The position numbers were made by a program, and so were the translations under genes. The notes beneath the pieces were generated by a model. It was not told the origin of the DNA. It searched no databases and worked only from the letters and a program-made list of their open reading frames with translations. From positions 496,001 through 560,000 of the forward strand of contig NZ_CP047204.1 of the NCBI RefSeq assembly GCF_030408735.1: a DNA stretch of 64,000 nucleotides, in the 5' to 3' direction. Shown here in pieces: positions 56,721-59,277 of the stretch (within the stretch, counting starts at the first letter, position 1; each line of letters starts with the position of its first letter). This DNA is from Corynebacterium faecale (GTDB taxonomy: Bacteria; Actinomycetota; Actinomycetes; Mycobacteriales; Mycobacteriaceae).

Positions 56721-57104
56721 ATGAGCAACCTGGACACGGTATTCGGTACCTCTGAGGAGGCTCAGGCGCTGATCAACCATGTGAAAGAGCGCTCCGGCGA
56801 GACGATCGATGTGACGGCTCTGTTTGCTGAGCTGGGTCTGGATAAGCTCTCTGGCAACTACACCGACACGCAGCTGGATGGATACGGTGATGCCTTCATG
56901 GTGGTGGCAGCCCTGGCCACGCTGATTGTGGACAAGGGTGAGGTGAAATTCCAGGTTGATGCCAAGGAAAACACCCAGATCAGCACCGCCCTGAAGTATT
57001 TTGCATTCTCCCCGGAGGAGCACACCGTGGCGGAACGCTTCGGCGAGGATGAGCTCTATGATGTGGCTGACCTGGCTGAGGAGCTGCGGGGGCAGTTGGA
57101 TTAA
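56721..57104 (+). CDS. Hypothetical acidic protein
   Basis: A 127-residue acidic cytoplasmic protein (MSNLDTVFGTSEEAQALINH...). GGAGAG lies six bases before the ATG. No domain recognised. Codon use is like the surrounding core genes, unlike the AT-richer cassette that follows, so it seems resident rather than part of it. Confidence 0.7.
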   Translation: MSNLDTVFGTSEEAQALINHVKERSGETIDVTALFAELGLDKLSGNYTDTQLDGYGDAFMVVAALATLIVDKGEVKFQVDAKENTQISTALKYFAFSPEEHTVAERFGEDELYDVADLAEELRGQLD

Positions 57105-57229
57105 GAAATACCTGATCGCTTTTGTTCGATGTCTTTACCTTGGTTGTCCTGCATGGAAAGTAAGCTGCTCTGATATTACTGGTGGTCCCTCTGCCATTAG
57201 TTTTTAGCGCGAGTAGAAAGCAGTTTCCG

Positions 57230-58633
57230 ATGGAAGAGCTGTACAAAGTTTTTCAGGCATCCAAAGATGCCTACCAGGAGTTGATCTCCAGGGATTTTCC
57301 GGATTTCGATATAGATGAGTACATCGAAGAGCAGCGTCTGGAAGCTGAACAAGCCGGGGTTGAACCTGAAATCAAGGTTGTTGAAGCCACGGATGCAGAA
57401 CAAGTTGAGGGCAAACGCCGAAAGTTTGGAAAGAAAATAGTCTCTAAACTTGATTTCAGCGGTGATGGAAAACTGGGTTTTGATGATTTTGCCAGTGGCG
57501 CTAAGCGAGCAGGTAGGGCGACTAGCTCAGCAGCCAAAGATGCAGGCCAGTCCATCAAGGATCTGGAAGCTTCTGCTCTCAAAGCTGGTGCTCAGAATGT
57601 GGTTTCCGGAGCGGGTAAAGCGATCGGAAGTGTGGATCCTAAAGGCATTGCCGGGGCAACGGTGCGAATTGGCAAGAGCGCGGTTGGAATCCAGGGCATT
57701 CAGAACAGAAAATCCGCCAAGAACATTGAAAGAGTGTGTTCTGAGTACTACGAGTGCGCAGAGGAGATCACGGAGGAAAAGCGACGTGACCTTAACTATG
57801 TGATCACGGATTTCGGAGAGTATCGCCTGCGGGTCCTTCACCTTACGGTGGGGCGATTCCTGGAGTACCTCACAGAGCTCAAGCAGAACAACGCCGCCAA
57901 GGAATATGAGATCCTCATGGGAGCGGAGTTCAGCTTTGAGAAGCTGGCTGAGATGGAACACCTGGACATGGCTGCCAGTGAGGCACTGCGTTCCACGGCC
58001 GTGGCGGGTGCCTTTGGACTCGCTGCATTGGTTGGTACCCCTGCAGCGGTGACCGGTGCCGTCGGAACGTTTGCCGCAGCATCAACAGGAACCGCAATCT
58101 CCACTCTCAGTGGTGCTGCTGCCACCAATGCCACGATGGCCTGGCTGGGTGGTGGGAGCCTGGTAGCAGGAGGCGGCGGAGTAGCTGCGGGTACGGCTGT
58201 GCTGACAACTATCACCGCCAGCACTACCGGAGTTTTTGCAATCCTGGCGGCAGGAACAATTGTCTCCGTTCACTACGGAAAGAAACTTACTGAGGCGAAA
58301 GAGTACGAAAAGAAGATCGGTGTTGCAGTTGCCGGTCTGGAGAAATCATGGGTGGTGATGGATGGAATCAAGACCCGCACCGTGGAACTCCGGGAGGTTA
58401 CCGAGGAGCTGAAGTGGAAGACGATTTTCGAGTTGGATAACTTGGAAAGCCTCATTAAGGATTTTGATTTCCAGGATCCCGATCATGTCGTGGTCTTTAA
58501 TAAGTGTGGCGTGCTGATTAAGACGATGGTGACGCTCGCTCAGATTCCCCTGCTGGATGAGGATGGAAACCTGAGCTATGAGAGCATGAAGATTTCCAGC
58601 AAGGTCCGTTCAGTGCTGAACACGGAGGTTTAG
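57230..58633 (+). CDS. EF-hand / glycine-zipper membrane protein, unknown function
   Basis: A 467-residue protein, first gene of a two-gene cassette. Residues 1-70 are charged and helical. DFSGDGKLGFDD (about 75-86) fits a calcium-binding EF-hand loop (Asp, Ser, Asp, Gly and a final acidic residue in place). Residues about 90-165 are Ala/Gly/Ser/Lys-rich. A long Gly/Ala hydrophobic block follows (about 255-345), including TNATMAWLGGGSLVAGGGG, which looks like a glycine zipper able to enter membranes. The C-terminal 110 residues are helical. No signal peptide. I do not recognise a named family. Upstream of the ATG there is no strong ribosome-binding site (AAAGCAG). Composition is AT-richer than neighbours. 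Confidence 0.65.
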   Translation: MEELYKVFQASKDAYQELISRDFPDFDIDEYIEEQRLEAEQAGVEPEIKVVEATDAEQVEGKRRKFGKKIVSKLDFSGDGKLGFDDFASGAKRAGRATSSAAKDAGQSIKDLEASALKAGAQNVVSGAGKAIGSVDPKGIAGATVRIGKSAVGIQGIQNRKSAKNIERVCSEYYECAEEITEEKRRDLNYVITDFGEYRLRVLHLTVGRFLEYLTELKQNNAAKEYEILMGAEFSFEKLAEMEHLDMAASEALRSTAVAGAFGLAALVGTPAAVTGAVGTFAAASTGTAISTLSGAAATNATMAWLGGGSLVAGGGGVAAGTAVLTTITASTTGVFAILAAGTIVSVHYGKKLTEAKEYEKKIGVAVAGLEKSWVVMDGIKTRTVELREVTEELKWKTIFELDNLESLIKDFDFQDPDHVVVFNKCGVLIKTMVTLAQIPLLDEDGNLSYESMKISSKVRSVLNTEV

Positions 58634-58635
58634 GC

Positions 58636-59277
58636 ATGGCACAGGATTACAAACAACTGTTTCAGCTGCTGTATGAGGAGTTCGGCGATCAAATCATTGA
58701 ACTGGCCAGGGAAGCAGTTGATAATAGACGGCCACACCAGCCGAATCATTTGAACGGGACAGATGACGAGGTTGTCTCTGATAGTGATGAGAATCTGGGG
58801 GATGACCTGAGAGAAGATCTTGAGGGTTCATCACAAGTGAACTATCACGATGCTGCAGACTTCGAGAGAAACTTTGTGCAGCAGTTGCAGGTTAATGCGG
58901 TGAGGGACTCCGGCGATGTCGTAGTCGCACTGCAACATCTGATTCTGATGGCCGGCGAAGTGGCTAAGTTCGATTCTGCCCAGCAGACGGTTCGAGTAGG
59001 AATCGCAGCGGAGCGGGATGTGGCCCTAGCGAAGATCGAGATGCAGAAGACCGTATTAATCGACTACCTGGATAAGTCCTTTGATGAGCGGAAAGAGAAC
59101 TTCCGCCGGCTATTCACAGTGGTTGATGATGCTCTGGAAAAGGACAATATCCAGCAGCTGGCGATGGGACTGGATGGCATACTCCGACTGGCGGAAACTT
59201 CGCCGTTCAAGGACCTTGAGTCCATTGAATCAACAACGTCTGCGCTCAACGATCCCAATCATCAGTGGGATTTCTGA
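58636..59277 (+). CDS. Partner protein of the cassette, unknown function
   Basis: A 213-residue soluble, acidic protein starting two bases after the previous stop. N-terminal helix (DYKQLFQLLYEEFGDQII), a disordered acidic linker, then long helices (about 95-190) including EMQKTVLIDYLDKSFDERKE and NIQQLAMGLDGILRLAETSP. I recall similar C-terminal sequences in unannotated bacterial proteins beside glycine-zipper membrane proteins, which supports a conserved two-gene unit; no name is known to me. TTTAGGC-type spacing implies translational coupling. Confidence 0.62.
   Translation: MAQDYKQLFQLLYEEFGDQIIELAREAVDNRRPHQPNHLNGTDDEVVSDSDENLGDDLREDLEGSSQVNYHDAADFERNFVQQLQVNAVRDSGDVVVALQHLILMAGEVAKFDSAQQTVRVGIAAERDVALAKIEMQKTVLIDYLDKSFDERKENFRRLFTVVDDALEKDNIQQLAMGLDGILRLAETSPFKDLESIESTTSALNDPNHQWDF

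Follow-up and report, generated by a model that had tools for sequence, protein, structure and literature searches.

What does a pair of adjoining genes do when it recurs across bacterial phyla and yet belongs to no characterised family? The question is raised by two genes, here called A and B, that lie two bases apart on the same strand near the end of the window, by which we mean the whole 64,000-nucleotide stretch of the Corynebacterium faecale genome analysed here. An earlier note, made from the letters alone, had described them as a cassette of an EF-hand membrane protein and a soluble helical partner, AT-richer than the genes on both sides and without a described function. The composition is indeed unusual; among the 55 window frames (120 amino acids or longer, none overlapping) that served for all comparisons of GC content and charge-free stretches, A (52.7% GC) and B (50.6%) are the two lowest, the window median being 61.4%. 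Nor does any characterised family claim either protein. We find that A and B form a true, conserved gene pair, present as neighbours in bacteria of many phyla. As to its work, we tentatively read A-B as a two-protein module, a variant of the PADLOC phage-defence candidate PDC-M09 and perhaps a membrane-acting defence or stress switch, in which A would insert a hydrophobic block into the membrane and B would hold or assemble A until a trigger arrives.

The pairing itself is directly visible in the genomes. Searches returned 2192 relatives of A at E values up to 0.001 among 7998 scored candidates and 46 relatives of B among 360 candidates, and our locus survey covered the best 80 of 315 A relatives confirmed in a genome scan. 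These loci come from Actinomycetota, Bacteroidota, Cyanobacteria, clostridia and their kin, Pseudomonadota, Campylobacterota, a spirochaete and others. In 55 of the 80 loci, a B protein lies no more than two genes from A, and 52 of 56 B members are the very next gene; when the larger partners described below are included, the profile searches and neighbourhood clustering place a partner near A in 75 of the 80, in line with the cassette described in the earlier note. In the remaining five, there is a B fragment in L054, a B-like scrap of 46 residues in L022, and neither in L021, L075 or L076. Rather than being found mostly apart, the genes of the 55 filtered pairs always share a strand (55/55), stand in the order A-B in all cases except one (54/55), and overlap or lie no more than 20 bases apart in 49. 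The tree distances of the two proteins also correlate (r = 0.83 over 56 pairs; the maximum of 2000 permutations was 0.25), both in the 30 non-cyanobacterial pairs (0.72; permutations at most 0.31) and in the 26 cyanobacterial ones (0.82; at most 0.46). Among 396 genomes of the phylum, all three that are positive for B, the window genome included, have A adjoining it, and three have an A match with no detected B, two of these matches being partial. A second A-like gene near A, recognised by profile in L020 and L028 and by eye in L079 (10915-11787), suggests that A has been duplicated.

How far does the partnership extend beyond the short B of the window? In 20 of the 80 loci, a larger partner of 366-803 residues is encoded within three genes of a sibling A. 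The profile of these 20 proteins closes with a segment of 99 columns that aligns to the B profile (hhalign probability 95.6, E 1.2e-8 in a single comparison), and it also matches two short B proteins (1e-10 and 4e-9). Taken one at a time, the partners at L032, L072 and L080 match the B profile with E values no worse than about 4e-6, and those at L069, L055 and L068 at 0.005-0.011; at L032 (11050-12150), the B-domain partner carries an LRAT domain at its N terminus (Pfam 4.4e-19). Because the profile of the larger-partner family ends in a B-like domain, our working rule for the module is A plus a B-domain protein. It is through these proteins that the module meets PDC-M09. A matches PDC-M09A models at 3.8e-29 (residues 182-394) and 1.3e-26, and the larger partners at L043, L072 and L032 match PDC-M09B, that at L080 being the one of four tested that does not. 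The window pair nevertheless departs from its siblings in two respects: its B is short and is not recognised by the PDC-M09B models, and its A has an EF-hand N-terminal region that sibling short forms of A are without. A paper of 2026 treats such PDCs as putative candidates proposed from guilt by embedding, mostly without experiment (PMC12988326). A literature search under PDC-M09 and its spelling variants returned no paper, among the titles listed by wider searches none named the pair, and no experiment on its function came to light.

Within A, the invariant positions lie in the core. The protein consists of N-terminal helices, the EF-hand loop, a long helix, a hydrophobic block rich in glycine and alanine, and a second long helix; its conserved core, at about residues 143-467, comprises the two long predicted helices and the charge-free block between them. 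The block, which the earlier note had picked out together with the segment TNATMAWLGGG that falls inside it, is the longest stretch without D, E, K, R or H in any of the compared frames, the next being 55 residues long. All 14 columns that are invariant across 93 A-family sequences map to it, and 78 of the 80 surveyed A frames have 60 or more consecutive residues without D, E, K or R. The AlphaFold2 model of A has a mean predicted local distance difference test score (pLDDT) of 66. By eye, no signal peptide is evident. The closest named relatives are from Corynebacterium sp. (80%) and C. callunae (63%). Further afield, A may bear some likeness to apolipoprotein L or to the interferon-induced IFI6 family; Pfam listed neither at E up to 1, which does not exclude the likeness.

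The N-terminal part of A tells a different story from the core. The EF-hand loop noticed earlier is a 12-residue segment, DFSGDGKLGFDD, with ligand-type residues at positions 1, 3, 5 and 12 and glycine at position 6, and this strict pattern arose by chance in 0.18% of 20,000 shuffles of A. A looser form of the pattern is found in 51 of the 60 best A matches, which include the window protein itself and some fragments, versus 4 of the next 60. Across the 51 loop-bearing sequences, a set chosen for the loop, positions 1, 6 and 12 are D, G and D in 98-100%, and mean conservation is 0.76 in the loop versus 0.23 and 0.38 in the adjoining linkers; G78 (0.90) and K81 (0.82), at positions outside that selection, are conserved too. 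The conservation of the loop hints that A may respond to calcium. Named members of this loop-bearing branch are Actinomycetota. Other lineages have MORN-type repeats or nothing in the place of the loop, and sibling short forms begin with a hydrophobic stretch. MORN-type repeats occur in 13 of the 120 A matches listed, the signal in a direct scan being weak, and their carriers are Acinetobacter, Myroides and Pedobacter; it is probably because of these repeats that some A relatives bear the database name "YwqK family antitoxin". Judged from such sequences, the N-terminal part of A is exchangeable between lineages. The partners show similar variation, with the LRAT domain at L032 as the one example.

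B fits its earlier description as a soluble, helical protein with an acidic linker. Its model (mean pLDDT 81.5) is all-helical, with a 77-residue helix followed by short helices, and no strongly hydrophobic 19-residue window was found among windows sampled every 8 residues. The charge of the linker varies among relatives, being +3 in one of seven checked. Five residues are invariant in 62 B sequences: F149, E151, R152 and D164 inside the 77-residue helix, and P190 beyond it. Against Pfam and PADLOC, B has no family above chance, the single PADLOC row being Specificity_I (0.015), and when the folds of both proteins were compared with the PDB, and that of B with viral models as well, no hit rose above the level given by unrelated long helices.

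Is the pair a settled resident of its chromosome or a newcomer? The local order near the end of the window is a guaB-like gene, guaA (both names as judged from the protein sequences), an Imm68-like gene, A-B, pspC on the opposite strand, and a PspC-domain histidine kinase. Intact A-B is present in 3 of 242 genus genomes, namely that of the window, G086 and G119, and the genes are adjacent in each. In the latter two, A has 29-30% identity and the pair lies elsewhere in the genome than the window site: in G119 amid repeated transposase-like frames and a DUF4062 protein, and in G086, with divergent sequence, where a type ISP restriction enzyme lies about 4 kb away. Ten further A matches in the genus, short or partial (E 6e-9 to 5e-4), are left out of these counts. 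At the window site, A-B is missing from G067, G032, G070, G008 and G026, which hold guaA, the Imm68-like gene and pspC, and in G019 guaA adjoins pspC without A-B; the site was not counted in G018, G068 and G012, where guaA falls outside the stretch fetched around pspC, or in G069, the nearest relative at pspC, where the sequence between the Imm68-like gene and pspC is broken by contig ends. A decayed remnant of A-B lies between guaA and pspC in G084 (L128 1208-1467, also part of L149), consisting of a short frame that by eye resembles the EF-hand region of A and a 47-residue frame that matches the end of B (56%). The scarcity of intact pairs, the sites without one and this remnant together indicate that A-B is accessory, that more than one lineage has had it at this site and that it was lost at least once. 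Of the acquisition suggested in the earlier note, low GC is in keeping with it, and the pair is indeed accessory and patchy; a recent mobile arrival gains no support, as no mobile element was seen beside the pair in the window and a relative has the decayed remnant at the same site.

The features of the pair are collected below. An alternative GTG at 57182 would lengthen A, and the near relatives of A, which have equal length and similar beginnings, fit the ATG at 57230. The gene upstream of A (56721-57104) encodes an Imm68-family immunity protein (Pfam 2.2e-27), with no toxin gene noticed adjoining. We considered it as a part of the pair and rejected it, as 5 of 12 fetched genus stretches have this gene in the place between guaA and pspC but have no A-B.

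Coordinates of the A-B pair and its features in the window (position 1 is the first letter of the 64,000-nucleotide stretch)
Feature	Position	Strand	Basis or remark
Gene A	57230..58633	+	Open reading frame, 467 aa, ATG start
EF-hand-type loop DFSGDGKLGFDD, A residues 75-86	57452..57487	+	Strict pattern match
Predicted long helix 1, A residues 143-221	57656..57892	+	AlphaFold2; block pLDDT 80-93 (151-220), ~48 (141-150)
Hydrophobic Gly/Ala block, A residues 255-347	57992..58270	+	93 residues without D, E, K, R, H; low-confidence model region
Predicted long helix 2, A residues 341-409	58250..58456	+	AlphaFold2; block pLDDT 86-97 (351-410)
Ribosome-binding-type site of B, GGAGG	58624..58628	+	Read from sequence; within the last codons of A, 7 bases before ATG
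Gene B	58636..59277	+	Open reading frame, 213-aa helical partner
Acidic, partly disordered linker, B residues 37-75	58744..58860	+	Net charge -12; pLDDT <50 at 37-55
Predicted 77-residue helix, B residues 92-168	58909..59139	+	Model; carries conserved DKSFDERKENF motif

How might such a module act? In the reading that we place first, A would stay in the cytoplasm, as the lack of an evident signal peptide suggests, and its charge-free block would insert into the cell membrane as a hairpin. B would bind A directly, likely keeping it inactive or assembling it until a trigger arrives, which in the window version is probably calcium sensed through the EF-hand loop; as the outcome, an infected or damaged cell would lose its membrane potential and stop growing. 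An effector that inserts into the membrane under a B-type controller, for defence or stress, comes first in our ranking, with membrane maintenance as its main rival, because of the PADLOC label, the single genomic contexts, a neutral systematic test and the CxxCxxCC and TerB neighbours. Some of those contexts do suggest defence, in line with the earlier note's proposal of a defence or stress system. In Escherichia coli ET896 (L162 6680-10979), a WYL regulator overlaps a short A, which is followed by a larger partner and a 346-aa protein near insertion sequences; a single genome among 5426 of E. coli showed the arrangement at the sensitivity used, and the island also holds a TrlF-type ATPase. 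An Azospirillum pair has a WYL regulator and a PD-(D/E)XK nuclease around it, type I restriction-modification genes lie just upstream of the pair on a Vitreoscilla plasmid, SIR2 and toxin-antitoxin genes are near Acinetobacter loci, and an AbiEi gene adjoins a Bifidobacterium pair. The type ISP restriction-modification gene near the G086 pair is a further context of this sort. In L062 (9542-12557), a Leo-type dynamin GTPase gene starts 7 bases after A, and two genes beyond it a larger B-type partner is encoded. Stress is hinted at as well: among 150 genes near sibling A genes, 11 carry CxxCxxCC and 7 TerB domains (the latter at E 1e-5), and small CxxCxxCC (YkgJ-type) and TerB genes are found near A at L043, L063, L067 and other loci, which may point to a stress role of the kind served by Ter-type modules, although neither is seen beside the window pair.

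A number of observations weigh against this reading. The systematic test gave no excess of defence genes: at E 1e-8, the 150 near genes, from 51 non-cyanobacterial loci, had matches to 137 PADLOC families, as against 143 for 114 edge genes taken from 37 of those loci, the tallies being of families and not of genes, and we therefore claim no enrichment in defence islands. For many loci, cyanobacterial above all, clustering revealed no recurrent defence-like neighbour, and the window pair is itself flanked by guaA, the Imm68-like gene and pspC, with no PADLOC-type gene recognised. Mobile replicons seldom carry A. Among 72,556 plasmid records, two proteobacterial A queries had 5 matches each, a third had 2 and the window A had none; annotated phages gave no match with two A queries, and viral contigs gave four short partial matches to the A alignment and none to the window A or B. 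At the level of the proteins, AlphaFold2 gives no confident structure for the hydrophobic block, the B-like end is seen individually in only 6 of the 20 larger partners (E up to 0.011), and the Pfam EF-hand models fall short of their cut-offs on A (E 0.026 and 0.07; 15.3 bits versus 30 and 13.1 versus 25.4).

What else could the pair be? The main rival, which we regard as somewhat unlikely, is envelope maintenance, in which A would seal or curve a damaged membrane, calcium entry would be the damage signal, B would be an assembly factor, and the cell would survive. The rarity of A-B on plasmids and phages, its position next to pspC and the recurrence of CxxCxxCC and TerB domains near sibling A genes all favour this idea, and LRAT and MORN-type parts would suit contact with lipids; yet so patchy a presence in the genus is unusual for an upkeep role, and six relatives keep the same site without the pair. 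An unlikely explanation, in our estimate, is a classical toxin-antitoxin system, with A as a toxin of the membrane and B as the antitoxin that neutralises it, the pair being kept mainly by addiction or by phage-triggered release. Such a system would agree with the two-base spacing, with a ribosome-binding-type site of B inside A, and with the strict pairing and co-divergence of the two genes, but larger partners that by profile end in a B-like domain would suit a sensor better than an antitoxin, and A is rare on plasmids. We consider it quite unlikely, too, that the membrane-acting switch takes the most specific form we can draw, a calcium-gated immune effector whose EF loop reads the rise in calcium after phage entry or envelope breach, upon which B would release A and a glycine-zipper hairpin would enter the inner membrane; the window pair would then be one branch of a phylum-wide modular system with swappable sensors (EF hand, MORN repeats, LRAT).

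Two further ideas start from the shape of A. Could it be a relative of the bacterial dynamins that has lost the GTPase and kept trunk and paddle only? The plan of a long helix, a glycine-rich hydrophobic part and another long helix is alike in outline to that of LeoABC and other bacterial dynamin-like proteins, LeoA being described with a glycine-rich paddle (PMC4159319); A also has a weak sequence match to BDLP 2j68 (E 1.1), and there is the Leo-type gene beside A in L062. That neighbour, however, is the one such case among the 80 loci, and Pfam lists no GTPase domain in A or B at E up to 1. When A was compared with a profile of 33 of the 120 listed Leo-type relatives, the match covered 38 columns (probability 66.6, E 5.4e-5 in a single comparison) and fell in helix 1 rather than the paddle, and B gave no match. 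The comparison does not support dynamin homology, and we hold such an origin to be very improbable. More improbable still is a pore former like ClyA or HBL, alpha-helical and secreted, that would act on other cells with B as its second component; long helices around a hydrophobic segment are common to both, whereas A-B has no significant fold or family match to that group and no export signal by eye.

A membrane-acting switch thus remains our first, tentative choice, and whichever reading proves correct, the pair deserves attention. Here is a gene pair shared by distant phyla, its hydrophobic block conserved to a striking degree, for which we found no described function. With the finding that the large second protein of the PADLOC candidate ends, at profile level, in a domain like that of the small B, two unknowns that had stood apart become a single module open to testing, and in the branch with the calcium loop, to which the window pair belongs, calcium would offer a simple switch in vitro.
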